NCBI GenBank assembly: GCA_945870155.1
Contig: CAMBSB010000009.1
Location: 1 to 64,000 of the forward strand
From: Paludibacter jiangxiensis
GTDB taxonomy: Bacteria > Bacteroidota > Bacteroidia > Bacteroidales > Paludibacteraceae
Length of the DNA stretch: 64,000 nucleotides
Direction: 5' to 3'
Made by a program: the position numbers and the translations under genes. Numbering within the stretch: position 1 is the stretch's first letter; each line of letters starts with the position of its first letter. Positions 4,405 to 43,948 of the stretch are shown piece after piece. The notes beneath the pieces are model-generated. The model worked only from the letters and a program-made list of their open reading frames with translations, had not been told where the DNA came from and searched no databases.

Positions 4405-4459
4405 CAAAATAAGTTATTTAAAACGGATATTGTGGGTATTAAAAAATACGTTTTAAGGT
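4405..4459 (-). promoter_or_regulatory. Promoter cassette of GH3 operon: two half-sites 22 bp apart and a -7 box
   Basis: On the minus strand the sequence reads ACCTTA (4459-4454), then ACCCAC (4437-4432) exactly 22 bp later, then a -7-like TTATTTTG (4412-4405) exactly 25 bp after that. The -7 differs from TAnnTTTG at one base. The geometry matches the cassettes before the beta-helix genes and GH2. The start codon follows 47 bp after the beginning of the -7 box. Confidence 0.7.
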
Positions 4460-4477
4460 ATGAAATGATAAATATAT

Positions 4478-4536
4478 CCCTCGCTGCGCTTCGGAATAAC
4501 AAGGCTATATCCTTCGCTGAGCTTCGGGATGACAAG
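4478..4536. repeat. Short tandem palindromic words of the CGCTGCGCTTCGG type
   Basis: Two successive units of the form ATATCC-TCGCTG-GCTTCGG-ATGACAAG. Related units sit at 5189-5283, and a fragment near 4797-4817 overlaps the end of the GIY-YIG gene. They are dispersed intergenic repeats, not genes. Confidence 0.65.
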
Positions 4537-4555
4537 TTTGTTGCCAACCTTTATT

Positions 4556-4732
4556 GGTAACAATACCCACAAAAGTGACGGTGTTAGACTTCCTGAGCAG
4601 TACTTTTCGAGCCCGTCGCACTACACATTTCACATTGCACCAACGCTTGGCGACGTGTATTGTCTTCCAGTATGCGCCTTGTCATCCCGACCAACGGGAG
4701 GGATATACAAGAATACAATACTGTGTCATTTA
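4556..4732 (+). repeat. Direct repeat, copy 1, flanking the GIY-YIG gene
   Basis: About 177 bp aligned with copy 2 at 5324-5502, by eye roughly four fifths identical. Shared blocks include GACTTCCTGAGCAGT, GTATTGTCTTCCAG and TCATCCCGACCAACGGGAGG. Similarity continues weakly to about 4775. The two copies point the same way and bracket the nuclease gene. Confidence 0.8.
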
Positions 4733-4796
4733 GAAGGCAAATTCAGTGTAAAGGAACTAATGGTAGGGATATAAGATTCATTTCCTCCATGCCTTT

Positions 4797-5120
4797 TCAT
4801 TCCGAGTGTAGCGTGGAATAAAATAATTTGTGAGGGTCAAGCTCTATCCAATCGGGATTTTTAGCATTAATCAGGTTGTCCTTTTTTATTCTGGAATAGG
4901 CTTTAATTTGTTTTTCACGAGCAATTGCCAAGTTGATATAATCATAAGTTTCAAAATACACTAATTTATTAATATTGTATTTGTGAGTAAAGCCATCATT
5001 TAAGCCTGACTTATGTTCTGCCAGTCTGCGAACAATATTATTGGTGACTCCAACATAAAGCATTTTATTATATTTTGTTGTGAGAATATAAACATAGTAG
5101 ATGTGAATTTTTATAAACAA
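4797..5120 (-). CDS. Small GIY-YIG endonuclease-like protein
   Basis: About 107 residues with the GIY-YIG nuclease signature: YYVYIL, then LYVGVTNN, the conserved arginine in VRRLAEHKSG, and a glutamate in the later helix (ARREKQIK-like AREKQIK segment). This is the short stand-alone type common in Bacteroidota genomes, with unknown cellular role. The start is uncertain: no ATG lies close upstream of the domain, and a TTG at 5120 (MFIKIHIYYVYIL) is the best fit; the frame stays open to 5480, but that part is translated repeat DNA. The C-terminus runs into repeat sequence. Direct repeats at 4556-4732 and 5324-5502 suggest it belongs to a mobile or repeat-associated unit. Confidence 0.7.
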   Translation of the reverse strand: MFIKIHIYYVYILTTKYNKMLYVGVTNNIVRRLAEHKSGLNDGFTHKYNINKLVYFETYDYINLAIAREKQIKAYSRIKKDNLINAKNPDWIELDPHKLFYSTLHSE

Positions 5121-5598
5121 AAAGTTGTTGTTTAATACAAAAATACAATATGTTTTGAAAATATTCGATTGTATAAATAAAATTATTATTTCCCACGCTG
5201 CGCTTCTTGTTGACAAGGCTATATCCCTCGCTGCGCTTCGAATAGAGAAGTTGCTATATCCCTCCCTCTGGTCGGGATGACAAGTCTGCCAGGAGTTGAG
5301 AAAACCGTCGCCCCACCCTTTTCGGTAGCAATACCCAAACAAAGGCGACGGTTCGAGACTTCCTGAGCAGTGTTTTTCGAGGCCGTCGCGCCACACACTC
5401 TGCATTGCACTAACGGTTGGCGACGGGTATTGTCTTCCAGAATGCGACTTGTCATCCCGACCAACGGGAGGGATATACAAGAATACAATCCTGTGTCATT
5501 TATAAAGCACATTATGTGTAAAGAATCAACGTGGGGGATATAATGTTGTTTGCCCTTATTTTCATTTTCAACACAGCGCTTCAGGATGTCTAGGCAGC
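5121..5598. other. Non-coding repeat-rich stretch
   Basis: AT-rich leader of the GIY-YIG gene (5121-5188), tandem palindromic words (5189-5283), the second direct repeat copy (5324-5502) and about 95 bp with nothing recognisable before the end of the SOUL gene. Confidence 0.65.
5324..5502 (+). repeat. Direct repeat, copy 2, flanking the GIY-YIG gene
   Basis: Partner of 4556-4732, same orientation, about 179 bp, with weaker similarity to about 5540. Both copies end in a palindrome around CATCCCGACC-AAC-GGGAGGGATA. Confidence 0.8.
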
Positions 5599-6198
5599 TT
5601 ATTTTTCAGTCCAATACACCGACACTATAATTTCATTTTTCCTTCCAAGAAACTGGAATGGTGGGTTATAACCAAGAAACCGGAAGTTTCCGTAAGCGGT
5701 GATTTCGTTTTGGAGCAAGAGCTTTTGGAGCTTCTCGGTATAAAACTTTAGGTCTTTGTCTGAAGTAAAACCACCAAATTTTAGTACCGCAACATATTCA
5801 TCCGGCGTGGTTTTAATTTCCACATTCGGATTGTTGGGTTTAGGTAAATTCTCTTTTGTATACCCCGCGGGCATTACAAAACTCATGGTGGAAGCTGTAT
5901 CATTAATGTCCATTTGCACAGGAGATGTCATCGAAATTTTTGTATTCGAGGCATTACCACCAAAGATATAACCTGCCAATTTCTGAAATCCGGGACCCGA
6001 AAGTTCCCTATAGGTTTTTGCTGACGAATAAATAGTGGCAAAAGTGGCAGAAGGATAAAATCTGATTTCAAATCCTTCGTACTTTTTTATAAAAGAGAAT
6101 TTCTGTTCTTCCGTTTTGTTTGTCGACATGATAAGAAATGATTGAAATACAAAAAAGATTATTATGACTATTACTACTATTATTATGAATGTTTTCAT
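5599..6198 (-). CDS. SOUL-family heme-binding-like protein
   Basis: A 199-residue protein read from the ATG at 6198; an earlier in-frame ATG at 6255 would add 19 residues before the membrane segment. It begins with a strongly hydrophobic helix (MKTFIIIVVIVIIIFFVFQ), likely a membrane anchor. The SOUL/HBP fold follows: KYEGFEIRFYPSATFATI, then a GFQKLAGYIFGGN segment, TKISMTSPVQM, and a Pro-rich C-terminal strand region. SOUL proteins bind heme or tetrapyrroles in some organisms; the bacterial role is not established. It is unrelated to the glycan genes and probably just a neighbour. Confidence 0.85.
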   Translation of the reverse strand: MKTFIIIVVIVIIIFFVFQSFLIMSTNKTEEQKFSFIKKYEGFEIRFYPSATFATIYSSAKTYRELSGPGFQKLAGYIFGGNASNTKISMTSPVQMDINDTASTMSFVMPAGYTKENLPKPNNPNVEIKTTPDEYVAVLKFGGFTSDKDLKFYTEKLQKLLLQNEITAYGNFRFLGYNPPFQFLGRKNEIIVSVYWTEK

Positions 6199-6549
6199 GT
6201 GGGTTACATAGGATTTTTTTTCTATTAAAACCCATAATAGAAGTCCTTTGTTCATTTAACCGTTTTATTTATCTTGTTGCTAACCCGCGAATTGCCCTAA
6301 AACCCAATTTAAATGCTGTACGGAGTGCAAAATATGGATTAGCTAGACGCCAAGCATGGTGTCTATAAGTCCTTTAAAAATGTATTGGTTATAATTTTGC
6401 ACCTATACTTGTTTTTTTTTGTACCTATCTACTTGTTTTGGATAATCTATTTTTGCACCGTTAACATCCATCTCAGATGTTTACCTTAAATTATTAATCC
6501 CGAATGCAGGCCAACTACATGCTGACATTCAATTTAAAAAAGTACTTTT
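6199..6549. other. Intergenic region upstream of the first beta-helix gene
   Basis: It contains the upstream part of the SOUL gene (divergent) and, at 6392-6455, the promoter cassette of the beta-helix gene with an unusually long 5' leader (about 95 bp from the end of the -7 box to the ATG). A second -7-like TAATTTTG lies at 6392-6399. No further gene was seen. Confidence 0.6.
6401..6455 (+). promoter_or_regulatory. Promoter cassette of beta-helix gene 1
   Basis: Half-sites ACCTATACTTG (from 6401) and ACCTATCTACTTG (from 6423) begin 22 bp apart. The -7 box TATTTTTG (6448-6455) starts 25 bp after the second half-site. No good -33 TTTG is present at the usual distance; the second half-site occupies that place, as expected for an activator-dependent promoter. 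Confidence 0.8.
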
Positions 6550-9500
6550 ATGAAAAAACAATTCTCTATTTTAAACACAGTCCTTATTACATGTACCCTA
6601 CTTTGGGGAATGGTAGGGATAATGAGTGCACAGGTAACTTTAATTTTACCAAATTCCTCTACAGCTAATTACTCAACCATTGAGGCTGCATATGCTGCTA
6701 TTAACTTTACAACGAATGCTGGAGCGCATTTTATTGAACTTGAATCGGCATATACTGGTGAGGCAAGTTATCCACTTACACTGGGTGCAATTACAGGTGC
6801 AAGTGCCACAAATAAAGTTACCATTCGACCTGCAGCAGGGCAAACTAAAGTGCTGGAAATGACCTCATCCTCAAGTGCGCCAATTACTACGATTACAACT
6901 TCAGCAGCAGCGAATACTACCACAAAGTTTATGACTAGCGCAACAGGGCTTTCGGCTGGCATGAAATTGGCTGGCTATGGAATTGTTGGTAGTCCAGCAA
7001 ACTTTACCACAATAAGTGATATTACGGATGGTGTAGTTACTATGGCTACAAATTTTTCATGGAATGCATCATTTAATGGAGCATACTCCACTATGATTGC
7101 TTGCCCAACCTCAGGTACAATACTTAAGGTTGCCAGCCCAACCTATATTAACTCAACTACATTAGATTACAGTAGTATCACTACTGGTATCGTTGCAAAT
7201 ATGATTGTAGGAGGAAATGCTATTCAGCCAGGTACTACTATAGTCTCTGCGACTCTCAATTCACCCTCTGCAGGTAAAACACGCGTAGTTTTATCTAAAG
7301 CTTTAGTTTCAGGAAATCAGACAACCCCAACACTATATTGTACAGATCCTTCAACAGGCGTTTATGTAATTCCTACAGGATTTCAAATGCCTGTAAGCAG
7401 TACCATAGGTGTGGCAATTGGTATGACTGTGGTTGGCACTGGAGTTGGTTCTGGATTTACTGGTGCTGTAAATGTTGTTAAAGTGGGTGCCACCGATGTA
7501 TACACAAACGCAAGTGGTACATACGCTGCAAGTGCGGCATTAACTTTCACTACACCAGGTGCATTAAATCCCGCTATCAAGTTTGATGGTGCGAAATATG
7601 TTACTATTGATGGACAATCGGGTGGAGTTGGTGGAACTAAAAACTTAACATTAAGCAATACATTGACTTTTAACAATGCTTCAACTCTTTATTTTGTTAA
7701 CGATGCATCATATAATACAATAAAATATTGTAATATTCTAGGTTCGAGTGTTTCAAGCACCTCTAACCCAACAACTGGCACCGTTTTTATAAGCACAACT
7801 ACTGGTACTACTGCTAGAGCTGGTTCTGACCCAAATTTTACAGGCTCGGGTAACTTAAACAATACTATCGATAATTGTGATATAGCGAATGCTTCAGGTG
7901 GTTTACCTACCGTTGGAGTGTATATGAATGGTACTGCAACATATACTAATGAAAGCAATACCATTAGCAATTGTAACATTTACAACTACTTCAATCCAGG
8001 AGCATTTGTGTCAGCTGGTATATATATTAATGATAATACAAAAACAACGACTATTAATGCTAATAAATTCTATCAAACTGCTGAAAGAACGTACACTCAT
8101 GTTTCAGGTGAAGGTATTAATTATGGGATTTTCAGTGCAACAGGATCTTCAGACAGTAAAGCATTTACAAACAATATAATTGGATATAGTTCGAATAGTC
8201 AAACTGGAACAATGACATTAAATGGCAATAAAAACTTCCGTTTTGTTGGAATTTATGTAGGAAGACCTCTAGCAACCGCTTATGGCAATTTAATTACCGA
8301 TATTGATATTTCAACAAGCTCGGTTGGCGCAACACATGCTGGTACGGTGACAGGTATTTATGCTGCAAATAATTTCCCTGCTGCAACTGCATTGTCTCCA
8401 AATATTATAAGAAATATTATTGTTAGACCAAGTGCTTCAACAGGGGGAACAGCCACTACACACACTTTATGTGGCTTAGGAGCACAAGGTGGATCTGCTC
8501 CATTATTTTATTACAACAATGTTTATAATCTTCAAGTTATTCCAACATCTGATGCTGTAGTTTCAAAATTAACAGGTATTTATATTGGTGCTGGTGCAAA
8601 TACTGCTGTAAAATTCAGCAATATTTATGATTTAACTTGTGGTGCAAGTGGTAACACTGGAGCACATACAGTAACAGGTATTTATTCAGTCGGGATAAGT
8701 CAATATGGTGGAACTAACATCAATACTGTTGAAAGAAACTTAGTATATAATTTAAAAGCAATCTCTTCTGGTTCTTCTGGATTTCCAACAATAATTGGAA
8801 TAACAGGTAACTGTGAATATGCCGGTAAAACTTCGGTGTTTAAAAATAATTTCATCGCTTTAGGAGAAAATGTTATGAATGATGCTATTATTTACGGTAT
8901 TCTTCAGCCAACAACTGACGCTACAAATTTATTAAAATACTATCACAATAGTGTCTATATTGGTGGTGCAGCTCCAGCATCACCCACTAAAAATACTTTT
9001 GCATTTTATTCAGCAGGAACAACTGTTGTTACTACAGGAACCAATGAATTAAAGAACAATATTTTCTATAATCAACGAACAATTACAGGTACAGGTAAGC
9101 ATTATGCCATTGGTTTTGCAACTGGAAGCGTATTAAAAACCTGTGACTACAACTTGTATTATGCAAGCCCTGTTGGCTTGGCAATTGCTGTTGAAAAAGT
9201 GGATTTAACAGCTTGGAAAGATGCAATTGTAGCTGGCAGCGATGCGTCAAGTATCACAGCCAACCCCCAATTCATTGCTCCAAATGCCACCACTCCAAAC
9301 CTACAGGTTCAAACCTATTCTTCAGCGGTAGCTGCCAAGGGTGCATCAGGTACTGGAGTTACAGATGATTACAACGGCACTACCCGTGCTGCCACACCTG
9401 CTATCGGTGCTTACGAATTTACTTACGCATCGGCAGCTTCGGATAATTACAAATCATTAGCAACAGGTAACTGGGGCGCAGCAGCTACCTGGCAATCATC

Positions 9501-11100
9501 AGTTGATAACTCCAACTGGGCAAATGCCACATTAGTTCCAGGTGCTACTTCTGCTACTGTAACTATTCAAAATGCGCATACAGTAAGTTTAGATGCAAAT
9601 GCTACTACATCAAGTTTAACTTTAAATTCAGGTTCTTTATTAAATGTAAATGCAGGCAAACAATTAACGGTTAGCACTACATTAAATAATAGTGGAACAT
9701 TAAACTTGCTTTCGACAAGCGAAGATGGTACTGCTACTATTTTAACTCCTGTAACTTTAGGTGGTACAGGTGGAACTTACAATGTTCAACAATGGCTTAC
9801 CGGAAAAACAGGAACCTCGACTCGTGCTATTTGGTATTTATCTAGTCCGGTATCTGGTGCAACTGCTGCTGTATTCGATGTTGCTGCCGGAACTAATAAA
9901 ATGACAAGATATGATGAAGCAGTTCCTGGATATGTATCTAATTTTACTTCCAATGCAATAGCTCTCACACCAGGTGTAGGTTATGTGGCGTACAATGGAG
10001 GCGCAGATGCTGTTTATTCCTTTACTGGCGGTAGTTTAAATACAGGTGCAATAACAATTCCTGTTACACGTACAGGTACTTCAGCAGGCAAACGTGGATT
10101 CAATTTGGTGGGTAATCCTTATCCTTCGTATTTGGACTGGAAAAATGTCTCGAATACCAAAACCAACTTACGTTCTACTATTTGGTACCGTACCTCTGTA
10201 GGAACAGGTGCAACAATGACAACCGATACTTATGATGGCACAACAGGTACAAACAACAATAATAAAGGGGCTGTAACACAATATATAGCTCCAATGCAGG
10301 CATTTTGGGTAAAAGTAGATAAAGATGGCGATGTGGCTACGCTTGCCTTTGCCAATGCAGCCCGCTTACACCGTGATCAAAGTTTGGCAGTCAACAGCTT
10401 GAGAGCTCCGGCACAAAAAGCTACCGAAACTCAAATAGTACGTTTGCGTGTATCGAATGGTACAAATAGCGACGAAGCCATTTTGGTGGCTGATGCTAAT
10501 GCCGCTGATGCGTTGGATGCTTACGATTCAGAAAAAATGAGCAACGACAATGTAGCCATTCCCGAAATCTATACATTGGCTGGTTCACAGGAGTTGGTAA
10601 TTAATCACTTAAGCGATTTTGCTGCCAACAAGCAAGTAGCTTTGGGCTTCCGTCCGGGTACAATCAATAATTTCAGTATTGTAGCCAACGAAATTAGCAA
10701 TATAGATGCACAAACCAAAGTTATATTGATAGACAAACAGCAGAATAATGCTGAATTCGATTTGACAGATGGTAATGCTTATACTTTTAGTGCTGATGCT
10801 ACTCCAACGACCAATCGCTTTGTAATAGCATTCAGAGCACCGGGTGTAGCTACAAACCTAAGCAATGCGAACAATCTCAATATGTTTGTTTACAGCAATG
10901 CGAACAATCAAATTACCATCAATCGCAATAGTGATAAAGCAGCCAAGGTAACAGTTTGCAATACTATGGGTCAGAAACTTGTGAGTACTCCAACAACCGG
11001 ATCTACTACCGTAATTCAGAAATCATTGGGTGCAGGGGTTTATTTTGTAAGCCTTATAGCAGAAGGAAATGAATCAACACAAAAAGTCATTATCAAATAA
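6550..11100 (+). CDS. Giant secreted right-handed beta-helix protein with T9SS sorting domain (1)
   Basis: 1516 residues. Signal peptide ends at MSAQ (residue 28). Residues about 30-955 are Asn/Thr/Gly-rich repeats of a parallel beta-helix, with recurring words such as YVTIDG, NTIDNCDI and NNI(F/Y)YN. It opens with a module shared by its three neighbours: YSTIEAAYAAI, then a GASATNKVTI segment. Near 960-1060 lies a TGNWGAAATWQSS module typical of Bacteroidota surface proteins, followed by beta-sandwich sequence. The end (about 1445-1516, closing QKVIIK) is a type A T9SS sorting domain, so export across the outer membrane is expected. Such helices occur in polysaccharide lyases and glycan-binding adhesins; no catalytic residues could be assigned. 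Confidence 0.85.
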   Translation: MKKQFSILNTVLITCTLLWGMVGIMSAQVTLILPNSSTANYSTIEAAYAAINFTTNAGAHFIELESAYTGEASYPLTLGAITGASATNKVTIRPAAGQTKVLEMTSSSSAPITTITTSAAANTTTKFMTSATGLSAGMKLAGYGIVGSPANFTTISDITDGVVTMATNFSWNASFNGAYSTMIACPTSGTILKVASPTYINSTTLDYSSITTGIVANMIVGGNAIQPGTTIVSATLNSPSAGKTRVVLSKALVSGNQTTPTLYCTDPSTGVYVIPTGFQMPVSSTIGVAIGMTVVGTGVGSGFTGAVNVVKVGATDVYTNASGTYAASAALTFTTPGALNPAIKFDGAKYVTIDGQSGGVGGTKNLTLSNTLTFNNASTLYFVNDASYNTIKYCNILGSSVSSTSNPTTGTVFISTTTGTTARAGSDPNFTGSGNLNNTIDNCDIANASGGLPTVGVYMNGTATYTNESNTISNCNIYNYFNPGAFVSAGIYINDNTKTTTINANKFYQTAERTYTHVSGEGINYGIFSATGSSDSKAFTNNIIGYSSNSQTGTMTLNGNKNFRFVGIYVGRPLATAYGNLITDIDISTSSVGATHAGTVTGIYAANNFPAATALSPNIIRNIIVRPSASTGGTATTHTLCGLGAQGGSAPLFYYNNVYNLQVIPTSDAVVSKLTGIYIGAGANTAVKFSNIYDLTCGASGNTGAHTVTGIYSVGISQYGGTNINTVERNLVYNLKAISSGSSGFPTIIGITGNCEYAGKTSVFKNNFIALGENVMNDAIIYGILQPTTDATNLLKYYHNSVYIGGAAPASPTKNTFAFYSAGTTVVTTGTNELKNNIFYNQRTITGTGKHYAIGFATGSVLKTCDYNLYYASPVGLAIAVEKVDLTAWKDAIVAGSDASSITANPQFIAPNATTPNLQVQTYSSAVAAKGASGTGVTDDYNGTTRAATPAIGAYEFTYASAASDNYKSLATGNWGAAATWQSSVDNSNWANATLVPGATSATVTIQNAHTVSLDANATTSSLTLNSGSLLNVNAGKQLTVSTTLNNSGTLNLLSTSEDGTATILTPVTLGGTGGTYNVQQWLTGKTGTSTRAIWYLSSPVSGATAAVFDVAAGTNKMTRYDEAVPGYVSNFTSNAIALTPGVGYVAYNGGADAVYSFTGGSLNTGAITIPVTRTGTSAGKRGFNLVGNPYPSYLDWKNVSNTKTNLRSTIWYRTSVGTGATMTTDTYDGTTGTNNNNKGAVTQYIAPMQAFWVKVDKDGDVATLAFANAARLHRDQSLAVNSLRAPAQKATETQIVRLRVSNGTNSDEAILVADANAADALDAYDSEKMSNDNVAIPEIYTLAGSQELVINHLSDFAANKQVALGFRPGTINNFSIVANEISNIDAQTKVILIDKQQNNAEFDLTDGNAYTFSADATPTTNRFVIAFRAPGVATNLSNANNLNMFVYSNANNQITINRNSDKAAKVTVCNTMGQKLVSTPTTGSTTVIQKSLGAGVYFVSLIAEGNESTQKVIIK

Positions 11101-11362: not shown

Positions 11363-11366
11363 TTGA

Positions 11367-11403: not shown

Positions 11404-11566
11404 GTAGAAAAATAAGCTAGTGATGTGTTAATTCTGTTTTGAAGGTAATTACTTTAAATGGTTAGTGAAGCCTTCACTAACCATCATTCTTCACCTTTAG
11501 AAGTGACGGCTTCAATAATACAGTTGCGACATTTTCATCCTAACTCAGCACAAGTTATTCATTTGC

Positions 11567-11621
11567 ACCCACATTGATATTATTATATACCCATCTGGAG
11601 ATAATTATTGCTATATATTTG
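11567..11621 (+). promoter_or_regulatory. Promoter cassette of beta-helix gene 2
   Basis: Half-sites ACCCACATTG (from 11567) and ACCCATCTGG (from 11589) are 22 bp apart. The -7 box TATATTTG (11614-11621) starts 25 bp after the second. The ATG is 51 bp from the start of the -7 box. Confidence 0.8.
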
Positions 11622-11664: not shown

Positions 11665-14271
11665 ATGAAAAAACTTTCCTCAATCAAAAAAGCCATCGTG
11701 CTTTTTGCAGCTATACTTTTTGGTATGGCAAGTATTCAAGCCGCTACTATTACAGTAAGTTCGGCAGCCGAATCGGCAGGTGTAAACTACAATACCATTC
11801 AGGCGGCATATAACTATATTAAAGACTTGGGAGCTGTAACACCCATTTCGGAAGCATACATTATCGAAATTCAAAGCACATACGCAGGCGAAGTGTCTTA
11901 TCCAATTTCGCTTACTGCCATTGCAGGTGCCAGTGCAACAAACAGCATTACAATTAAACCTGCAAGTGGTGCGAAAATTACAATTGCGAACCCGGCTGCA
12001 ACCGTTGTAAAAACAGGATTGACATCGACAGTGGCACCTACAGTGGATGTTCTGGATGCAACAGGTATTACTTTGGGAATGACCATATTTGGAACTTCTA
12101 CTAATACATCTTCTTTATTTCCAACTGTAACTGATATCACAGGAAGTGTAATTACAGCAGGAACAACTAACTTCACCGCCAAAACAGGTGCATCATTGTA
12201 TTTTGGACCAAAAGGTACTAAAACCATTGTTTTTTCGGGTGCAACTTATGTAACCATTGATGGTATTTCGCGTACAGGCGAAACCGGTCTTACTATTCAA
12301 AATCCAAATAATATTGTTGCTCGAACACTATCATTTGAAGCAGCTACTTATAGTACAGTAAAAAACTGTTATATCAAAGGTGCGAATATTTCAGGTGATC
12401 TTAACAATGATGGAAAGTGTGGACAGATATTTTTCAGCGGAGTAAGTAATTATAATGTAATAGAAAACAATGATGTGTGTGATATTGATGGCAATATTAT
12501 GCCTGTAAATATGTTTATTTTTAACAATACAGGAAGTACTACTGATGCTTCAGTTATTAATACAGTTCAGAATAACAATATTTACAATTTTAATTCTACG
12601 CCAGCTACAGTAGTTGGGAATGCTGGATGTTTTAATTTTCCATCGAGTGCAACTCCTAATACATGGGTGTTGAATAACCGCATTTATTGGACCAAAGCTA
12701 TTCCAGCAACTTTTACAGCAGGTAATACTACGTTTTTTATTATTGGATTTGGAGGTTCATCATCTGGAAAACTTTCCAGAATAGAAGGTAATTTTATTGG
12801 AGGAACAGCGTCGGACGGAACAGGAACGGCTACTTTTACTCCTGCGGGTTCTCTTACAATTGTTGCAATAAATGGGCAATCCAATTTTACGGTTAAAGAC
12901 AATACTATATTTGGCATCTCAAGTAGTTTGCCAAATGGGTTTAACGGAATAGTACTTGGATCGAGTTATACGAATGCCGATGCAGGTGATATTTCTGGAA
13001 ATACCATTCGTGACATAACTGTTACAGGTGGTGCAAATAACGCTTCAATAAACGTAATTAACCGTACAGCAGCTGCAGCAACATTTTCCCGTAATGTAAC
13101 TAATAATACCATTTATAATATCTCTTGTACAGGAGCTTCCATTGCCAACAGAATGCTGATTCGTGGTATTTACATGCAGGGAACATGTACCAGTAATTCT
13201 AATTTCACAGGCAATAATATTTCTAATTTCACTTCTGGAAATGGATCTTCAACAGCTGCTAGTTTTGCTATTGCTATGGATTTACAACTTTACACAAGTG
13301 TTGTTGAAAAGAATTTAATCTACAATATTAATACTTTTGGAACAACTGCTGTAGCAAGTACTAAAACATCTTATGGTATTCGTATAACAGGAAGTAACAA
13401 TGTGAGCTATAATGGCGTAACTGGCACTGAAATTAAAAACAATATCATTTGTTTGGGAACTCAAATGACAGACAATCCGGCTATGATTTATGGTATTTAT
13501 CAGGCAGCAGCCAATGCTATCACCGACCCTTGTAAAATTTACAACAACACGGTATATATTGGAGGCTCTGCCTTTTCGACAGCCGCAATAGCACATTCAA
13601 GTTATGCATTTTTCCGCACAGGAGTAGTTCCTGTAAACGATATACGTAATAATATTTTCTCGAATCAACGTTTGGTAAACGGTGGCACAGCCAATCAGTA
13701 TGCATTTAGTGTGGCTGCTCCAGCCGATGTGGCCACCATGACAAAAAACCTTTATCAATACAATGGTAAATTAGGTGCTATTGGTACTGGTGCTGTAACA
13801 ACTTATGCTGATCTGACTGAATGGAATACTGCAAGAACAAGTCCGTTATCAACAGATGCTAGTTTGGATAATGCTGTTCCGGGATTTGCTGATGCTACCG
13901 GAACAACACCTGATATGCATATTTCTTCAGCTAACTCACCAGCTAATCAATCGGGTGTGGTTATTTCTAGTGTAACCGATGACTTTGCCGGAGCCACTCG
14001 TGCCGATTATACTCCAAGTGATTTGGGAGCTTATGTAATTGCCGGCTCTACCACAGTAGAAACTGCCGCTGTTCAAAAGTACAATGTTTTTGCTATCAAT
14101 AATGCTATTGTTTTCAATAACTTAAGTGGGCAAACTGCACGTGTTTATTTATTGAGTGGACAGTTGCTAAAAACAGTAACTTTAAACTCCGATTCTTACG
14201 CAATGCAAATAGCAAAAGGATTTTACATGGTAAGTGCAAATGGACAAAATGTAAAAGTAATTGTTAAATAA
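11665..14271 (+). CDS. Secreted right-handed beta-helix protein with T9SS sorting domain (2)
   Basis: 868 residues; signal peptide MKKLSSIKKAIVLFAAILFG...SIQA. It opens with the shared paralogue module (YNTIQAAYNYI, then GASATNSITIKPASG) and continues as beta-helix repeats to about 790, including YVTIDGISRTGETGLTIQN, which is nearly the same in paralogue 4. The end is a T9SS domain (YNVFAINNAIVFNNLSGQ ... VKVIVK). It is close to the fourth paralogue in length and order of blocks, pointing to tandem duplication. No enzyme residues recognised; glycan binding or lyase activity are both possible. It has its own operator-type promoter and terminator. Confidence 0.85.
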   Translation: MKKLSSIKKAIVLFAAILFGMASIQAATITVSSAAESAGVNYNTIQAAYNYIKDLGAVTPISEAYIIEIQSTYAGEVSYPISLTAIAGASATNSITIKPASGAKITIANPAATVVKTGLTSTVAPTVDVLDATGITLGMTIFGTSTNTSSLFPTVTDITGSVITAGTTNFTAKTGASLYFGPKGTKTIVFSGATYVTIDGISRTGETGLTIQNPNNIVARTLSFEAATYSTVKNCYIKGANISGDLNNDGKCGQIFFSGVSNYNVIENNDVCDIDGNIMPVNMFIFNNTGSTTDASVINTVQNNNIYNFNSTPATVVGNAGCFNFPSSATPNTWVLNNRIYWTKAIPATFTAGNTTFFIIGFGGSSSGKLSRIEGNFIGGTASDGTGTATFTPAGSLTIVAINGQSNFTVKDNTIFGISSSLPNGFNGIVLGSSYTNADAGDISGNTIRDITVTGGANNASINVINRTAAAATFSRNVTNNTIYNISCTGASIANRMLIRGIYMQGTCTSNSNFTGNNISNFTSGNGSSTAASFAIAMDLQLYTSVVEKNLIYNINTFGTTAVASTKTSYGIRITGSNNVSYNGVTGTEIKNNIICLGTQMTDNPAMIYGIYQAAANAITDPCKIYNNTVYIGGSAFSTAAIAHSSYAFFRTGVVPVNDIRNNIFSNQRLVNGGTANQYAFSVAAPADVATMTKNLYQYNGKLGAIGTGAVTTYADLTEWNTARTSPLSTDASLDNAVPGFADATGTTPDMHISSANSPANQSGVVISSVTDDFAGATRADYTPSDLGAYVIAGSTTVETAAVQKYNVFAINNAIVFNNLSGQTARVYLLSGQLLKTVTLNSDSYAMQIAKGFYMVSANGQNVKVIVK

Positions 14272-14340: not shown

Positions 14341-14353
14341 GTTATCCAATTGT

Positions 14354-14408
14354 ACATACAATTTTATCATTTTATACATAGTCTGCGAAATTATATCCTT
14401 TATATTTG
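14354..14408 (+). promoter_or_regulatory. Promoter cassette of beta-helix gene 3
   Basis: Half-sites ACATACAATTTTA (from 14354) and ACATAGTCTG (from 14376) are 22 bp apart. The -7 box TATATTTG (14401-14408) starts 25 bp after the second half-site and 45 bp before the ATG. Confidence 0.78.
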
Positions 14409-14445: not shown

Positions 14446-17400
14446 ATGAAAAAACTTTTCGCAACTGTTAAGACTCTTTTGAGTCTTATAATTGTGCTTG
14501 CATCTACTGCATTTTTTGCAACAAATGCCGAAGCACAATACCTTGATAACCTTACAGACGCATGGAGCAAAGCTCCTACTGCAGCTTATTCCACCCGCAA
14601 AGTAATTTCAACTTATAGCGGCCCTGCAATGAAACTTAGACGCAGTAGCGACAATGTGGAAATAGATGTGTTTTTTGATGCCAATGGTTGGGTTTCCTTA
14701 TCATCGAATGTTGGCACAGCCGCATCGGGTAATATGTTGGTCGATTGGGTGGGCTTAAGTTCTGCTTTTGTTACTAAATGGTACGACCAAAGTGGAAATT
14801 TAAATCATGCCACATCGGTTGAATGTAGCGGTACTATCAATGCTGTAACTGCCGGAACTGCCATTGCTGGTACTGGTACTGCATTTAATGTAGAACTTGC
14901 TGCCGGAACAAATATTTATAGCGTATCAACCGGTGCATTATTAGCCACAGTTGGAGCTGCTGCACCAGCAAGCGCTACTGCATTTACAGCTGCCTCTGCT
15001 GTTACTATAGCTGCCGGCACCAAATTTTTTACCCGCGAAAGTCAGCCTCGTTTTATTAGTGGAGGAGTTATCGACGCCATGCCTAATGGTCGACCAGCTT
15101 TGTATTTGAATGAGGTACAAAATGGTGTTAGCACCAGTGGATTAACTACACCAATGATTTTAAGTGCCGATGCCAATGTAAATGTTTTTGCCGTTGCAAA
15201 AAGAACACAGCATAATTCGGGAAACAATGTGGCTCTTGTTTTAGGAAACTGGACGAATTTTAATACTGCCTCGGCAGGAAATTTTTCGGTAGGATTTTGG
15301 AATAATGTAGGTTTGGCTACTCGGTCTACAATAACAACAAGTTTAGCTACAGTATTAAATCAACCCTATGCAACACAGTTTTATATAAACGCAAAAAAAG
15401 CAGTTACTACAGCCGAAAATACCGGAATTGTTCAGTTAGATGCAGCAGGTGTTACTACAAGTAGTCCGGTTGTGGCAGGTGCTACTGCTTTCACTAATAG
15501 CACTAAATTGAATTTATTTCGCCCAATAAGTTTTGCTCCACGCGCACTCATGGGGTATTGCCCCGAAGTAATTTATTATGCAAGTACTACTGATGATGCG
15601 GTGTATAATACTACTGATGCCACTGCGTTACAAGCTGCTCAAAAAGCAAGTTACATGGATGCTGTAGCTGCATCTCCGGCTGTTACTGTTCAGGTTGGTG
15701 CATCCCAAACTTACCCTACAATACAAGCTGCTTATAATGCTTTGCCGTCTTTAATTACATCGCCTTATATTATCGAACTTCAAAGCGATTATGTTTCGTC
15801 ATCTGAAACATTCCCAATTACGATGGTTTATAAAAGTGGTTCAAGTATGGCAAATACAATCACTATTCGTCCTGCCGTGGGTGTGTCTGCTACATTTAGT
15901 GGAACCACCGTTACACCAATATTTAAACTAAATGGTTCAAAATATGTGATTATCGACGGTCGTTCGGGTGGTGAAGGCTCAACCAAAAGTATTACTATAG
16001 AAAATAAAAGTGCCGATGCAAGTGCTTCAACAATTTTGATGTCAAACTCTGCCACCGGAAATAAAATTCAATACTGTACGGTTTTGGGTTCGGCTGTTTC
16101 TACCACTTCAATACCAACATCGGGTACAATTGTGATTGGTTCTACTACAGAAACTGTAGCGGGTTGTGCCGCCAATGTTGTTGATAATTGTGATGTTGCA
16201 AATGCTTCAACAGGTTTGCCTACTGTAGGTGTTTATTTGGTTGGATCAACTGGTTTTACTACCGAAGGAAGTGTAGTTACCAACAACAATATCTCTAATT
16301 ATTTCAATCCAGGCGCATTTGTAAGTAGTGGAGTTTATGTAGGTGTTTTGGCGCAAGCTTCAACCATTACAGGCAATAAACTTTTCCAAACTGCAACGCG
16401 TACTTATACCGATGCCGGTTTGCATTATCCAATTAATATTAGTGCTACAACATCAGTAATTACTGATAATACAATAGGTTACAGCAGTTCAGCCGGTACC
16501 GGTACAATGACAATTGATGGAACTTTTGCACATAGATGTGTCGGTATTAATATCAACAAACCGGTTACAACTTTACAAGGAAACACAATTTCGGATATCG
16601 ACTATACTTCGAGTTCGGTTGGAGGTACATATGATGGCGTTTTAGCGGGAATTTATTACACCGATGGAAACTTGCCTACTGTTATTCAATCGAAACCAAC
16701 TACGATAAGAAACTTGAAACTACGTTTCACATCCAATACTCCTATGGGCATTGTTGGACTTTCTTATTATGCTTTTAATGGGTCGGCAAATATTGCTTAT
16801 ACCAGTGTAAGTAACCTACAAGCTATTCCAACCGGCGATAATGCCAATACAATTGCAGGAAACGTAATTGGAATCTATTCATTTGGTCCTTATGGCGGTT
16901 CTAATAAATTCAATACGGTTTCAAACTTAAGTTGTGGCGTCGAAGGTAGTAATGCAGCACATCAAGTAACCGGAATTTCTGCAAATACTGGAAGTAATCA
17001 GGCTTTAACATCCGAACGTAACATGGTTTACAATTTAAATGCAATTTCTACAGGAGCATCTGTTATTACAGGTATAAATTGTTCGGCCGGTACAGCTACT
17101 GCTACTTTTAAAAACAATATTGTAAACTTAGGGAATGAAGTAACAAGCCCTGCCGAAATCAGAGGTATTTACAAATTGTCAGTTGGAAAAGATGTGATGT
17201 ATCACAATACAATTTATATTGGTGGAACAACTTCAGGTACAACAGCTAACACTTATGCTTACTACCGCAATACTGCTACTCCAACTGTAATCGGTGAGGC
17301 AGTTCAAAATAATATATTTGTAAATAAACGTACAGGTGGCGCTACAGGTATGCATTATGCCCTAAAAATGTTGAATGCCGCTGATTATTCGGGTGGTTTC

Positions 17401-18006: not shown

Positions 18007-18054
18007 AATATAGCTTGCTTTTATAGATAAAAGCAAAGTTTGTTATTATTTTAT

Positions 18055-33024: not shown

Positions 33025-34911
33025 ATGAGAAAATACAGCCTATATTTCATAGTAATTCTTCTGATTACACTCACAAGTTGCGAAGATTTTTTAGATAAAA
33101 AATCGAGCGCATTGTTAACTTCCGAACAGGTTTTTGGCGATCCGGTTCAGTTTCAGAAATTTCACGACGATATTTATACTTACCTGCATTATTGGCCGGG
33201 CGATTGGGCTTGTCAGTCATTTGGTGGTTTGGGGCGCATTGGTTATTCGTCGTTCGAAGGTGCTACCGACCTTGCCGAAGCGTCGCGCGATGTGGCTGGC
33301 ACCAACGCCGGTTTTAATCTTGGCAACTGGTCGAAAAATGCTTACGGAATGCAGGTGGAGCTTATCTGGCCTTGGAATGGTTCGTATGCAGGCATTCGCC
33401 GATGTAACGTAGTGCTCGAAAAAGTGGATTCCGTACCGAACTTGTCGCCCGAAAAAGTAAAAGCCTACAAAGGTGAAGCACTATTTTTGCGTGCGTTTTT
33501 TTATAGCGAATTGATAAAACGCTATGGTGGTGTACCTTACATTACTAAATCGTTGGCAATAGACGAGAATATGGATTTGCCTCGCGAAGCTTACGATACC
33601 TGTGTAGCCAAGATTATAAAAGACCTGGATGCTTCATTCAATTATTTGACGCTCGAAAAACCGTTTGGGCCACAAGGTGGACAGGCTGCCACCGATTTAG
33701 GTCGCCCAACAAAAGGAGCTGCACTAGCGCTCAAAGCCAAAGTATTGCTTTATGCAGCCAGTCCAATTAATACCGAACCCTACACCGTAAGTATAGGCGG
33801 TCGCAATCCCGATTTATATTTTACCGAAGTGCCCAATACCGATGCCGAAAAACGCCAAATGTGGATAAATGCTGCTACGGCTGCTTACGAAGTGATAAAA
33901 ATGGGTGAACAGCAGTCGCAATATGGATTGCTCGACTCAGCTAATTACCGTAATATTTTTTACGGCGATGCTACTAATAAAGAAGTGATTTTTACGCGTG
34001 TTGATGGCAACTGGTCGTTTGGTGGCGGAAAGGCGCTTACTGGTTGGATTAGTTTTGCCGATTATGGTGCTTCGAAAGGTTATGGTGGAAGTGCCGGTAC
34101 TTATCCTACTCAAAATTTCGTGGATATGTTTGAAATGGAAAATGGATCAATTCCGATTATGGGCTATGAAAATGGTGATGGTACCAAACCAATTATAAAT
34201 CCGGCTTCGGGCTATAGCGAGCAAAATATGTGGAAAAATCGAGACCCTCGTCTAAAACTTATAGTACTTTGCAATCAGGATAAATGGCAGGATAGACCTG
34301 TAGAAATGTGGTTCGACAAAGAAAACCCTTCGGTATCGGGTTCAGAAATGAAAGATGCACGCGACTATTGCACTACAGGTTATTTGTGTAAAAAAATGTG
34401 GCCGGAAGATTTACGTTCGGGTGGTACTGCATCCGTTGCCATGAACTGGATTTGGATTCGCTATGCCGATGTTATTCTTTGGTATGCTGAAGCAATGAAC
34501 TGGGCATACGGCCCTGATGTGGACGGACTAGCCAACGGCTTTACTGCCCGCACAGCACTCAATAAAATTCGTAACCGAATGAATCCGCGTAGAGCAGGAA
34601 TGCGTGATTTGTCAATGTCTATTACTTCGAAAGAGGCGTTTCATGAACGATTAATGAACGAACGCGCCATCGAATTTGTGTACGAAGAACAACGCTGGTG
34701 GGATGTGTTGCGCTACAAAAAAGGTGTTGAAACTTTTGGCAAACCTATTTATGGTGTACGTAACCTTCGAACTTCCACATCGCCGCTCAAGTTCGAGATT
34801 ACCCGACGCAAACTCGAGAACCGTGCATTTAGCGATTATATGCATATTTACCCAATTCCTTATACCGAGTTGGAAAAAAGTCCGAAGTTGAAACAAAATT
34901 TAGGTTGGTAG
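33025..34911 (+). CDS. susD: SusD/RagB-family glycan-binding lipoprotein (1)
   Basis: 628 residues; lipoprotein signal MRKYSLYFIVILLITLTSCE with the lipid-bearing Cys at 19. TPR-rich SusD fold: EALFLRAFFYSELIKRYGGVPYI, the RYADVILWYAEAMNWAYG helix and the C-terminal IEFVYEEQRWWDVLRYKKG, then the closing IYPIPYTELEKSPKLKQNLGW. It forms the lid of SusC1 on the cell surface. Repeat doublet D follows the stop codon. Confidence 0.95.
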   Translation: MRKYSLYFIVILLITLTSCEDFLDKKSSALLTSEQVFGDPVQFQKFHDDIYTYLHYWPGDWACQSFGGLGRIGYSSFEGATDLAEASRDVAGTNAGFNLGNWSKNAYGMQVELIWPWNGSYAGIRRCNVVLEKVDSVPNLSPEKVKAYKGEALFLRAFFYSELIKRYGGVPYITKSLAIDENMDLPREAYDTCVAKIIKDLDASFNYLTLEKPFGPQGGQAATDLGRPTKGAALALKAKVLLYAASPINTEPYTVSIGGRNPDLYFTEVPNTDAEKRQMWINAATAAYEVIKMGEQQSQYGLLDSANYRNIFYGDATNKEVIFTRVDGNWSFGGGKALTGWISFADYGASKGYGGSAGTYPTQNFVDMFEMENGSIPIMGYENGDGTKPIINPASGYSEQNMWKNRDPRLKLIVLCNQDKWQDRPVEMWFDKENPSVSGSEMKDARDYCTTGYLCKKMWPEDLRSGGTASVAMNWIWIRYADVILWYAEAMNWAYGPDVDGLANGFTARTALNKIRNRMNPRRAGMRDLSMSITSKEAFHERLMNERAIEFVYEEQRWWDVLRYKKGVETFGKPIYGVRNLRTSTSPLKFEITRRKLENRAFSDYMHIYPIPYTELEKSPKLKQNLGW

Positions 34912-41421: not shown

Positions 41422-41424
41422 AGA

Positions 41425-43794
41425 ATGACAAACCGCATTTTTGCAATTGTTTTTTTGCAACTCGCATTATTTTCAATTAATATAATTGCTCAAACCGACA
41501 CATATAAATTCAACTCCATCCGTATGGGTGGAGGTGGATTTGTATCTTCCATCATAACATGTCCTACTCAAAAAAATCTGATTTTTGCCCGTACCGATGT
41601 AGGTGGAGCTTATCGTTGGAACGAAGCTGATAAAAGCTGGATTCCACTGCACGATTGGGTGAGCGATAGCCAGTGGACATTTTTGGGTGTAGAAGCTTTG
41701 GCCATTGATCCTCAGCAACCTAACCGCGTTTATATGTCGTGCGGGTTATACAATAATAGTCCCAGCAATATAATGCGTTCCACCGATTATGGTGCTACAT
41801 TCAAATTGTCGAACGATGGATTTCCGCAAATAAACGGGAATGGCATGGGTCGGCAAAATGGTGAACGCCTGATTGTTGACCCCAATAAAAGTGCAGTGCT
41901 TTTTTGTGGTTTCCGCAATGGCACTCTCTACCGCAGTCCGAATTACGGGGCAAACTGGAGTTTAGTTGATGCATTTGGTACCAAAACCACTGCTAATGGC
42001 AATGGTGTATGTGCTGTAGCCATCGATAAAGCTTCGGGAACTCCCGGTAATGCTTCGCAGCGCATTTTTGTGGCAGTTTCGCGTACCGGAAGCGACAATC
42101 TTTTTTTAAGCGAAAATGGAGGAACAAGCTGGATTACAGTGCCCGGAGCAATAAATAATTATATGCCACAGCGCATTTTTGTTTCAAATGGAATTCTTTA
42201 TGTAGCTTACGCCGACAAAGAAGGACCACATAATCCGGGCAAAGGTGCTATAATGAAATACAATATTGCCACTTCAACCTGGACCGATATTTCGCCGGCA
42301 GCTTTGCCTATTGGTGGAATAACGCAGGATGCTTCCAATCCCGATGTATTAATGGCAACAACTATTAATGTATATCAACCACAAAACTGGACTACCAACC
42401 AGCAGTGGGGCGACCGCATGTATCGTTCCACAAACGGTGGAGCAACATGGACAGAGCTTTTTTCATCGAATAAAATGCAACTAAGTCCGTTGGATACATG
42501 GACTACAAATCTTTCGTTGCACTGGACAGGCTCTATCGAAATCGACCCCTTTAATCCCGACCGCGTTTTTGTAACCTCGGGTAATGGACTGTTTATGACT
42601 GATAAACTTTCCGATATCAATGCAGGTAAATCTACCTGGTATTTTCAGGTAAAAGGTATCGAGGAAACGGTGCCTTTTGGCGTTGCATCATTGCCAAACA
42701 ACCGTTACGTAACTGTTATTGGCGATTATGCGGGTTTTGTACACGATGGGTTAACATCTGTTCCAAAAGGCTTTAGCAATGGTGGCGGATCAAATACTTC
42801 TTTGGCCGTAGCAAGTGCTCAGCCAAATATTCTGGTGCGTTCGGGTGGTAGTAATTACTATTCCAACAACTCCGGCGACAGCTGGACGGTGATGAACAAT
42901 CCTTCGGAAACAGCGAAACATGGTAATCTGGCACTCTCGCGCATTGGCAATATTATACTATACAGTCCGCGCGATACGGTTTACAAATCCATTAACAAGG
43001 GTGTAAACTGGACCAAACTTACCGGTTTTTTCAGCGGAGCATATATAGTTCCCGACCAGGTAGTGAACGAAAAATTTTATACTTTTAATACTGCCACAGG
43101 CCGGTTTTATACCAGTACCACAGGAGGAACGTCGTTTACGGTTTCGGATGTTGTTTTTCCTAAGGGAGGAAACCGGATTGTAAGGGTTGCGCCGGGTCTC
43201 GAAGGCGATGTATGGGTAGCTGCCGCCGATGGTTTGTATCGCACCAAAGATAGCGGGGTATCATTTGGTAAAATTGCCAATGTTACGCATTGTCAGGCTG
43301 TAGGGTTTGGAAAAGCGGCGCCCGACAAATCTTTTCCCACAATTTTTATTTGGGGTACAGTTGTAGGTGGGGTGACATACAATGCACTTTATCGCTCCAC
43401 CGACGAAGGTGCAACCTGGCTCCGCATCAACGACGATTTGCATCAGTACGGCGGACTTGGAAATGCAAATTTTGTAGAAGGCGATGTGAATGTGTATGGA
43501 AGGGTGTTTATGAGTTCGTGGGGACGTGGTATTATTTATGGCGATATTGAACCCAAAACAGGGTTTAGTAAGCCTGCAACAAAAAAATCCACAGCACTTT
43601 ATCCCAACCCAACCAACGATAAACTTTTTGCTGGTGATGATGTGTCGCAGATTGATATTCTATCGTTGAGTGGTCAAAAATTATTGGAGTCGAAACAATC
43701 CAGCATTACGGTAAGTTCAATCCGCAAAGGTTGGTATATGGCTCGCGTATACCAAGCGGATAGTATTGTAAATCAATTGTTTTTGAAAAATTAG
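41425..43794 (+). CDS. GH74-type xyloglucanase-like enzyme with T9SS sorting domain
   Basis: 789 residues; signal peptide ends at IIAQ. The opening NSIRMGGGGFVSSI ... LIFARTDVGGAYRWN is the hallmark of GH74 two-propeller endo-xyloglucanases, and Asp58 in RTDVGG fits one catalytic acid. VIGDYAGFVHDG carries Asp434 in the place of the second. Repeated Asp-box/BNR words (STDYGATF, SPNYGANW, STNGGATW, STDEGATW) mark the propeller blades. The C-terminus (STALYPNPTNDKLFAG ... NQLFLKN) is a T9SS domain, so the enzyme is expected on the surface, where it would cut the backbone before SusCD import. It is the last gene of the operon; a terminator follows at 43817. Confidence 0.87.
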   Translation: MTNRIFAIVFLQLALFSINIIAQTDTYKFNSIRMGGGGFVSSIITCPTQKNLIFARTDVGGAYRWNEADKSWIPLHDWVSDSQWTFLGVEALAIDPQQPNRVYMSCGLYNNSPSNIMRSTDYGATFKLSNDGFPQINGNGMGRQNGERLIVDPNKSAVLFCGFRNGTLYRSPNYGANWSLVDAFGTKTTANGNGVCAVAIDKASGTPGNASQRIFVAVSRTGSDNLFLSENGGTSWITVPGAINNYMPQRIFVSNGILYVAYADKEGPHNPGKGAIMKYNIATSTWTDISPAALPIGGITQDASNPDVLMATTINVYQPQNWTTNQQWGDRMYRSTNGGATWTELFSSNKMQLSPLDTWTTNLSLHWTGSIEIDPFNPDRVFVTSGNGLFMTDKLSDINAGKSTWYFQVKGIEETVPFGVASLPNNRYVTVIGDYAGFVHDGLTSVPKGFSNGGGSNTSLAVASAQPNILVRSGGSNYYSNNSGDSWTVMNNPSETAKHGNLALSRIGNIILYSPRDTVYKSINKGVNWTKLTGFFSGAYIVPDQVVNEKFYTFNTATGRFYTSTTGGTSFTVSDVVFPKGGNRIVRVAPGLEGDVWVAAADGLYRTKDSGVSFGKIANVTHCQAVGFGKAAPDKSFPTIFIWGTVVGGVTYNALYRSTDEGATWLRINDDLHQYGGLGNANFVEGDVNVYGRVFMSSWGRGIIYGDIEPKTGFSKPATKKSTALYPNPTNDKLFAGDDVSQIDILSLSGQKLLESKQSSITVSSIRKGWYMARVYQADSIVNQLFLKN

Positions 43795-43816
43795 TTAGCA
43801 GGTTTTGTTTACATAT

Positions 43817-43850
43817 AAAAGGATGTTTGAATTTTCAAATGTCCTTTTTT
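43817..43850 (+). terminator. Rho-independent terminator after the GH74 gene
   Basis: AAAAGGA and TTTGAA pair with TTCAAA and TCCTTTT, with a small internal mismatch, ending in a T run. Confidence 0.75.
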
Positions 43851-43893
43851 ACATTTTAAAATCACTAAATCGCCCTTTTTATTACTATTTTAT

Positions 43894-43948
43894 ACGTCTA
43901 TTGTTATTATTTATCACCCTAAACTATTATTTAAACAAGCTATATTTG
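43894..43948 (+). promoter_or_regulatory. Promoter cassette of GH2
   Basis: Half-sites ACGTCTATTG (from 43894) and ACCCTAAACT (from 43916) are 22 bp apart. The -7 box TATATTTG (43941-43948) starts 25 bp after the second half-site and 33 bp before the ATG at 43974. Confidence 0.75.

Follow-up and report, generated by a model that had tools for sequence, protein, structure and literature searches.

A 22-bp direct-repeat cassette with a -7 box as the predicted operator-promoter of one HTCS-linked polysaccharide-utilization regulon in Paludibacter jiangxiensis

A promoter cassette of constant geometry occurs seven times in a 64,000-nucleotide stretch of the Paludibacter jiangxiensis genome (the window; contig CAMBSB010000009.1, positions 1 to 64,000). 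Judged from the sequence, it is very probably the operator-promoter of one polysaccharide-utilization regulon, with the hybrid two-component regulator (HTCS) encoded at 25715-29794(+) as the predicted class II activator. Switches of this type are known already, the cassette being a new example. HTCSs are described as a major regulator class for polysaccharide use in Bacteroides (PMC11253607). The 28 sites collected here from four genomes provide a candidate operator ready for gel shift and indicate which genes beyond the locus may belong to the regulon; their strict 22-bp spacing can be set against the published average of 21 bp.

An earlier note had listed six cassettes, ahead of a GH3 gene, four beta-helix genes (here b1-b4, for secreted proteins) and a GH2 gene. 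All six were found where it had placed them, with the offsets as claimed: 22 bp separate the two half-site starts, and TTTG in the -7 box lies 51 bp past the first of them. A seventh cassette had been overlooked at 29826-29880(+), before the first susC gene and 24 bp ahead of its probable start codon at 29905. In a full scan of the window this site scored 31.4, versus 2.0 for the next unlisted position. The proposed half-site word, ACCyAy/ACATA, is present but is merely the 3' end of a half-site unit of ~18 bp, GTTATCATTTTATACCCA, which recurs with a period of 22 bp. With the complete units, the GH3 cassette covers 4405-4472 on the minus strand (unit 1 4472-4455, unit 2 4450-4433, box 4412-4405). 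The others lie on the plus strand and are given in the same order: b1 at 6388-6455 (6388-6405, 6410-6427, 6448-6455), b2 at 11554-11621 (11554-11571, 11576-11593, 11614-11621), b3 at 14341-14408 (14341-14358, 14363-14380, 14401-14408), b4 at 18042-18109 (18042-18059, 18064-18081, 18102-18109), susC at 29813-29880 (29813-29830, a weak unit 2 at 29835-29852, 29873-29880) and GH2 at 43881-43948 (43881-43898, 43903-43920, 43941-43948). Unit 2 ends 20 bp upstream of the -7 box. The TAnnTTTG box claimed for +47 is replaced by TTATTTTG in the GH3 site, but the position of TTTG is unchanged. The half-site word is poorly matched in unit 2 of the susC site and in the first half-site of the GH2 site (ACGTCT).

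The GH3 glycoside hydrolase gene (2176-4365, minus strand) was taken to start at ATG 4365, 39 bp past the box; its mechanical ORF start, TTG 4407, falls inside the cassette. A GH97 glycoside hydrolase gene (66-2132, minus strand) is probably co-transcribed with it. On the plus strand, b1 (6550-11100) encodes a secreted protein with a T9SS sorting tail that is a distant relative of the secreted proteins of b2 (11665-14271), b3 (14446-17934) and b4 (18142-20685), each of which has a DUF6383 tail. The predicted structure of the b4 protein is mostly beta (mean pLDDT 66). Glycan-degrading enzymes and phage depolymerases, which we take to be of the beta-helix type, top its list of PDB matches, with TM-scores that are low. 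Also on the plus strand are the genes for a SusC-type TonB-dependent receptor (29905-33012; ATG 29905 was chosen as the start, and the mechanical one at 29869 falls inside the cassette), a SusD-type glycan-binding protein (33025-34911) and a GH2 glycoside hydrolase (43962-46475). From 46495 onward, an ECF sigma factor gene (46495-47049) and an anti-sigma gene head a susC/susD locus of their own.

The claim was borne out that the repeats are direct, lie two helical turns apart and keep a constant register to the -7 box. When 23 cassettes were compared with themselves at a lag of 22, the repeat identity was 0.554 versus 0.334 after shuffling (z 12.6). The 14 half-sites of the window also yielded a half-site matrix, which was applied with free spacing (lags 14-45) to 14 loci of the four carrier genomes. 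At a threshold of 6, it detected 20 pairs at lag 22, no other lag giving more than 2, and the reversed control had 0 at lag 22; at a threshold of 4, there were 23 at lag 22 and no more than 4 elsewhere. No competing spacing thus emerged between lags 14 and 45 in these loci, which had mostly been fetched via the lag-22 profile. The 20 lag-22 pairs had been picked regardless of the box, and TTTG was found at +51 in 18 and at +50 in 2 of them, where chance would give ~1% per position. Among all 28 cassettes, 27 have TTTG at +51 and one at +50. A third repeat unit is absent from the consensus. One G023 site contains three units (L083:7029/7007).

Conservation is confined to the same elements. In the seven window sites the identity is 0.67 and 0.65 in the units and 0.81 in the box, whereas the flanks are at the shuffled level (0.27 vs 0.27; 0.34 vs 0.34) and the 19-bp spacer is at or near it. 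These window sites are therefore not copied stretches of DNA. Likewise, both units and the -7 box are conserved in the 28 cassettes of four genomes, with flanks at or near the shuffled level.

It had also been argued that the second half-site replaces a -33 element. TTTG indeed begins at +22 to +24 in 0/28 cassettes. However, ordinary intergenic -7 boxes of the same genome (n=65) show TTTG in only 0 to 3% at each of these three offsets. Since ordinary promoters here rarely have a -33 TTTG, its absence from the cassettes says little about a replacement.

In leave-one-out matrix scans over 127,892 window positions on both strands, four of the six cassettes ranked 1st, GH2 2nd and GH3 3rd; with 14 bp more of upstream sequence, three ranked 1st and three 2nd (of 127,864). 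The exact pattern gave 5 matches versus 1 with the reversed control. A profile, R1, was built from six window sites with the GH3 site held out and was run against the complete genome (5.8 Mb), in which 7906 first-look candidates arose and 150 of them were scored. Its ten best matches are the seven window sites and three sites on contigs C305 and C89, which speaks for specificity at the scale of the genome. The held-out GH3 site is the tenth match (E 0.027) and is not separated by R1 from the following ones in this genome (0.028 and 0.043).

R1 matches at E<=1e-3 were obtained in exactly 4 of 48 genomes of the genus. These carriers are exactly the genomes with an orthologue (at least 65% identity) of the HTCS: cassettes were found in 4/4 genomes with the orthologue and 0/44 without it, under stricter filters with 106 candidates scored per genome, by which weak sites in the 44 could be lost. 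With the own genome left out, the chance of so complete an agreement (3 in 47) is 1/16,215. The cassette between the HTCS and susC genes is kept in G023 and G067, the susC gene of G067 being 92% identical to that of the window. G023 has a single HTCS orthologue and 9 cassettes, spread over 5 contigs; the retrieved portions of the other four contigs showed no domain resembling the HTCS DNA-binding domain (tblastn E<=1e-8). The 28 cassettes comprise 10 of the own genome, 3 of G003, 9 of G023 and 6 of G067. From 45 matrix hits, 23 with scores of at least 31.1 were kept and 22 at <=29.0 were dropped, including the shifted duplicate L083:7029, L089:861 (28.0, ahead of a GH30 gene) and L003:17462 (23.6); five G067 sites were added later. 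The weakest site kept, L084:4217, lies 262 bp ahead of an RHS-repeat gene. As R1 was made from sites spaced by 22 bp and most loci of the set were fetched through it, other spacings elsewhere would have been missed.

The proposal that this HTCS is the likely regulator was strengthened by these results, in that the cassette tracks its orthologues across the 48 genomes and the HTCS-susC site is kept in two of them. Within a single open frame, the protein contains, in order, Reg_prop, Y_Y_Y, HisKA, HATPase_c, Response_reg and AraC-type HTH_18 domains, each over the Pfam cut-off, and the S/CHIP motif was found in its receiver as SHIP. The DNA-binding domains of the orthologues are 98.5, 96 and 72.5% identical to that of the window HTCS, and two stretches where we presume the DNA-reading helices to lie are nearly unchanged. 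No cassette was found before the start of the HTCS gene itself in the window scan. We envisage that the periplasmic sensor would meet a glycan fragment (the earlier note names pectin as a candidate substrate), upon which the receiver domain would be phosphorylated. Two AraC-type DNA-binding domains may then bind head-to-tail on one face of the DNA, the two HTH motifs of each reading the TTAT and ACC words, which are about one helical turn apart in a half-site. The promoter-proximal subunit would touch RNA polymerase at the -7 promoter in the class II manner. GH3, the secreted beta-rich proteins, SusC/SusD, GH2 and a few unlinked genes would be switched on jointly, and the HTCS gene itself would remain outside cassette control.

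Because the HTCS gene is within the same locus, co-occurrence alone cannot separate the HTCS from other locus-confined genes. Pfam was run on 26 of the 34 window ORFs listed, and among these the ECF sigma factor, together with the anti-sigma gene, is the sole other regulator. It is nevertheless most improbable that this sigma factor recognizes the cassettes, which bear a housekeeping -7 box; moreover, its closest homologue has 78% identity in G023, compared with 45% in G067 and 33% in G003, and the latter two genomes have cassettes. The sigma and anti-sigma genes also have their own susC/susD locus to head. Alternatively, a different regulator encoded in this genome might bind the cassettes, for instance the HTCS paralogue on contig C29 or a free AraC-type protein, with the linked HTCS controlling something else. 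Paralogues of about 33-37% identity, such as the C29 protein of the own genome, are present in all four carriers, and weak cassette-like sites, partly mis-spaced, lie near paralogues at L003:17462 (a version spaced by 23 bp ahead of a susC gene), L144:3802 and L145:11285; L144 and L145 have one lag-22 pair each, that at L144:3802 being outside the 28-site set. However, G066 and G061, which both lack the cassette at E<=1e-3, also have paralogues of similar identity, though not necessarily orthologues of the C29 protein. In its DNA-binding domain, the C29 protein shares only ~51% identity with the window HTCS, the strongest sites surround the latter, and its orthologue directly precedes a cassette in two other genomes. 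We therefore regard control by such a regulator as unlikely.

Common descent without any regulator, through duplication of genes along with their upstream DNA, would also produce similar cassettes. The b1-b4 genes are indeed paralogues (29-41% identity, five of the six pairs over >600 residues and b3-b4 over 88), and cassettes of orthologous genes in different genomes share descent. Yet the GH3, GH2 and susC genes belong to other families, and the flanks and spacer of the window sites are at or near shuffled identity while the units and box are conserved; duplication as the whole explanation thus seems hardly credible. A different possibility is that the HTCS binds these sites for repression or dual action rather than class II activation. 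BT2391 is an HTCS that represses its locus (PMC11253607), and the lack of a -33 element is uninformative here. On the other hand, unit 2, ending 20 bp before the -7 box, occupies a place suited to an activator touching the polymerase. The receiver also carries the SHIP part of a motif, completed by D-K residues, that PMC11253607 links in most HTCSs to an inhibition relieved by phosphorylation. Activation by the HTCS remains our preferred reading, and repression or dual action appears improbable.

At araI1-I2, AraC binds direct-repeat half-sites of ~17 bp two turns apart, the proximal one adjoining the core promoter, and activates as a class II activator. The cassette resembles it in having direct half-sites two turns apart with the proximal one adjoining the core promoter. 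It differs in that the promoter there is of the -10/-35 type and here is a -7 TAnnTTTG promoter, in that AraC is a soluble sugar-binding dimer whereas the present HTCS is a membrane phosphorelay, and in that no DNA loop is known for the cassette. For Bacteroides, HTCS operators were predicted in 2013 by comparative genomics as direct repeats averaging 21 bp, a layout given for 16 B. thetaiotaomicron HTCSs, which are thought to bind as dimers on one DNA face (Ravcheev et al., PMC3878776). The two-site direct repeat of about two turns before operons of the HTCS-holding polysaccharide locus is the same as here, but the period in the present cassettes is 22 bp throughout, 1 bp above that average; examples in that source have a spacer of 9 bp between 12-bp sites and of 6 bp between 14-bp sites. 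PMC11253607 describes the S/CHIP motif of HTCS receivers and reports gel shifts of the response-regulator fragments of BT4124 and BT4663 with promoter DNA of their own susCD operons. These proteins likewise have an AraC-type DNA-binding domain fused to the receiver but act on other loci and targets, and for the present HTCS the binding is a prediction. None of the open-licence papers retrieved describes this operator in its title or the beginning of its abstract, and the register of HTCS sites to the -7 box is absent from the available parts of PMC3878776, PMC11253607, PMC12125979, PMC7366714, PMC4942465, PMC11501099 and PMC10766802.

Other spacings were sought in HTCS loci. For 103 -7 boxes ahead of ORFs, drawn from 18 further loci of the own genome that are linked to an HTCS, z at lag 21 was 5.5, or 6.3 with a slightly different range, versus 0.9 for control boxes; the values were 1.1 and 2.1 at lag 22 and 2.7 and 2.9 at lag 26. 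At lag 21, z was 3.5 in G032 versus 2.6 for control boxes, and 1.3 in G066 versus 4.7. Several control sets also had elevated values at lags 18, 21, 24 and 27, such as triplet periodicity of coding DNA would produce. A family-wide 21-bp rule, supported in one of three genomes and unconvincing against the controls in G032 and G066, was set aside. So was a 23-bp operator for the C29 paralogue, for which L003:17462 is the single case: seven loci, five of them holding C29-type paralogues, gave two lag-22 and zero lag-23 pairs. It is conceivable, though we put it forward only tentatively, that the spacing is part of the address in this genome, one HTCS using strictly 22 bp and other HTCS loci favouring 21 in the same -7 register. 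If so, a period differing by one base would act jointly with the words of the half-sites to keep many related regulators from activating each other's loci. One susC site has a spacing of 23. In a more distant HTCS group (35-40% identity), three half-site-like stretches were observed at 22+21 bp, the units being aligned by eye.

All six cassettes listed in the earlier note, each consisting of two direct-repeat half-sites (units 1 and 2) and a -7 box, were found at the coordinates assigned to them when the window sequence was checked directly. When each was held out of the scoring, its rank was 1-3 out of 127,892 positions in the window; extending the sites upstream by 14 bases gave 1-2 out of 127,864. 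A full window scan detected a seventh cassette at 29826-29880(+) upstream of susC. Its first unit is good and its second weak, its -7 box reads TACTTTTG, and 24 bp separate the cassette from the ATG at 29905. The mechanical ORF starts of GH3 (4407), the secreted-protein gene b4 (18040) and susC (29869) fall inside or beside their own cassettes. The true starts are likely ATG 4365, 18142 and 29905, each opening with a signal-like peptide. Two genes at 4797-6255, one GIY-YIG nuclease-like and one for a SOUL haem-binding protein, separate the divergent cassettes of GH3 and b1; the corresponding cassettes of the relative G003 are just ~460 bp apart.

Comparison of the two halves of 23 cassettes gave an identity peak at lag 22 (0.554 vs 0.334 shuffled, z 12.6), the second-highest lag being 20 (z 3.5). 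A half-site matrix derived from window sites only, with neither the spacing nor the -7 box built in, was scanned at threshold 6 over 14 loci of the genomes carrying the hybrid two-component regulator (HTCS, 25715-29794(+)): 20 pairs had lag 22, and no other lag had more than 2. Behind these pairs TTTG, which occupies ~1% of positions in the same loci, starts at +51 in 18 and +50 in 2, counted from the first half-site word. Over 28 cassettes it starts at +51 in 27 and +50 in one; TAnnTTTG is exact at +47 in 22/28; of the others, the five GH3-type sites carry TTATTTTG, and in one the box comes one base earlier. Across 56 half-sites the consensus reads GTTATCATTTTATACCCA; its TTAT and ACC words start 12 bp (about one helical turn) apart, an interval that would fit an AraC-type domain with its two HTH motifs. 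A cassette with three 22-bp units was seen in the relative G023 (L083:7007-7029, contig C40); the nearest following gene found is 399 bp off and has no Pfam family match.

Conservation was measured region by region as mean pairwise identity against shuffled sequences. Among the seven window sites it was 0.67 in unit 1, 0.65 in unit 2, 0.81 in the box and 0.44 in the inter-unit linker (shuffled 0.34), whereas the upstream flank (0.27 vs 0.27), spacer (0.31 vs 0.29) and downstream flank (0.34 vs 0.34) were at or near shuffled. Over all 28 cassettes, orthologous promoters included, the spacer (0.36 vs 0.31) and downstream flank (0.37 vs 0.33) slightly exceeded the shuffled level. Thus the cassettes are conserved sites in largely unrelated DNA rather than copied promoters.

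R1, a sequence-only profile trained on six window sites without the GH3 site, was used to search the whole genome (5,785,126 bases, 339 contigs; best 150 of 7906 first-look candidates scored). Its top 10 matches were the seven window sites together with C305:3621-3688, C89:80-147 and C89:1597-1662. The excluded GH3 site came tenth (E 0.027). Since C71:5961 (E 0.028) and C297:859 (E 0.043) follow closely, R1 alone does not set the GH3 site apart; these two lie upstream of GH127 and GH30 genes, respectively, and may be regulon members. On C89 the divergent GH3/b1 layout is seen again, with a GH3 89% identical to that of the window, so that the genome bin possibly includes a related strain.

The earlier note had proposed the HTCS as the binder, and the distribution of the cassettes agrees with this. 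Full-length HTCS homologues among 48 genus genomes were found in G067 (91%), G003 (89%) and G023 (65%), the remaining listed matches being ≤40%. R1 matches at E≤1e-3 occurred only in these carriers (own genome 8, G067 5, G023 5, G003 1) and in none of the other 44 of 48 genomes, stricter filters being used here and the best 106 candidates of each genome being scored. In a wider set of 60 relatives the top match beyond the carriers had E 0.00104, and 15 non-carrier genomes gave weak matches (E 0.00104-0.05). The HTCS domain set is complete (Pfam) and its receiver contains SHIP. Its DNA-binding domain is 98.5% identical in G003, 96% in G067 and 72.5% in G023, where two stretches presumably holding the recognition helices are nearly unaltered. 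The window ECF sigma factor does not track the cassettes: its closest homologues are 33% identical in G003 and 45% in G067. HTCS paralogues of 35-37% occur in every carrier; G066 and G061 have similar paralogues and lack cassettes (R1, E≤1e-3).

Cassette-like sites were also seen near other HTCS genes. A further HTCS locus in the own genome has divergent sites, L003:17462(+) and L003:17404(-), before a susC and a secreted-protein gene, the susC-side site having 23-bp spacing. L144:3802 (G067 contig C328), outside the set of 28, has a lag-22 pair with TATCTTTG at about +47, adjoins an HTCS paralogue and precedes a gene start resembling GH3. Beside another HTCS group (35-40% identical; L025, L030, L032, L033, L040 of genus relatives), three half-site-like stretches with the similar word GTTATCAAT...CCCC are spaced by about 22 and then 21 bp. 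Inspection by eye showed no -7 box directly after them, and so a promoter layout of another kind.

The earlier note had argued for a class II activator layout partly on the view that unit 2 replaces the -33 element. The published consensus combines TAnnTTTG at -7 with a TTTG near -33, an element that searches in Flavobacterium johnsoniae failed to reveal (PMC7366714). At the distance where unit 2 ends, TTTG was rare in 65 intergenic boxes of the own genome (0-3% at each offset); the one small excess lay at -28 (7.7% vs 0.6% of coding boxes). Since ordinary boxes rarely show TTTG at that distance, its absence from the cassettes is uninformative, but the fixed register to the -7 box stands as the real evidence for a putative class II position.

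Direct-repeat operators, with sites averaging 21 bp apart, have been predicted for 16 HTCSs (PMC3878776), and by its sequence pattern the cassette appears to belong with them as a further case. It shares the direct repeat, and has a strict 22-bp period, a defined -7 register and a different bacterial group. At other HTCS loci of the own genome lag 21 stood out with the -7 register unchanged (z 5.5 in one version and 6.3 in another, against 0.9 in the control); two further genomes gave no confirmation over their control boxes. Therefore, that repeat spacing helps to keep related HTCSs apart remains just an idea.

The Pfam scan covered the gene behind 19 of the 28 cassettes. Secreted proteins carrying T9SS, DUF6383 or Big_12 domains account for 11 of these; GH3, GH2 and SusC-type receptors were seen twice each and an RHS-repeat protein once, and one gene had no family. 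The window members of the secreted group, b1-b4 (6550-11100, 11665-14271, 14446-17934, 18142-20685), are paralogues. Neither Pfam nor NCBIfam called a beta-helix family for them, but the b4 model is mostly beta (mean pLDDT 66) and its best PDB matches, at low TM-scores, are glycan-degrading enzymes and phage depolymerases, which we take to be mostly of beta-helix type; the earlier beta-helix label is thus plausible. Pfam called a beta-helix family for the gene at 23226. Pectin had been suggested as substrate, and the family scans found no pectin-specific family among the cassette units. A second locus (46495-62918), in which the window scan gave no high-scoring cassette, has an ECF sigma and FecR-type anti-sigma pair at its head, susC/susD, a GH78-type rhamnosidase, GH88, an alpha-fucosidase and a DUF4450 protein. 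In G067 (L110:398-3000, contig C118) the gene after one cassette resembles b4 and has an early break in its reading frame, which could reflect misassembly or a broken gene.
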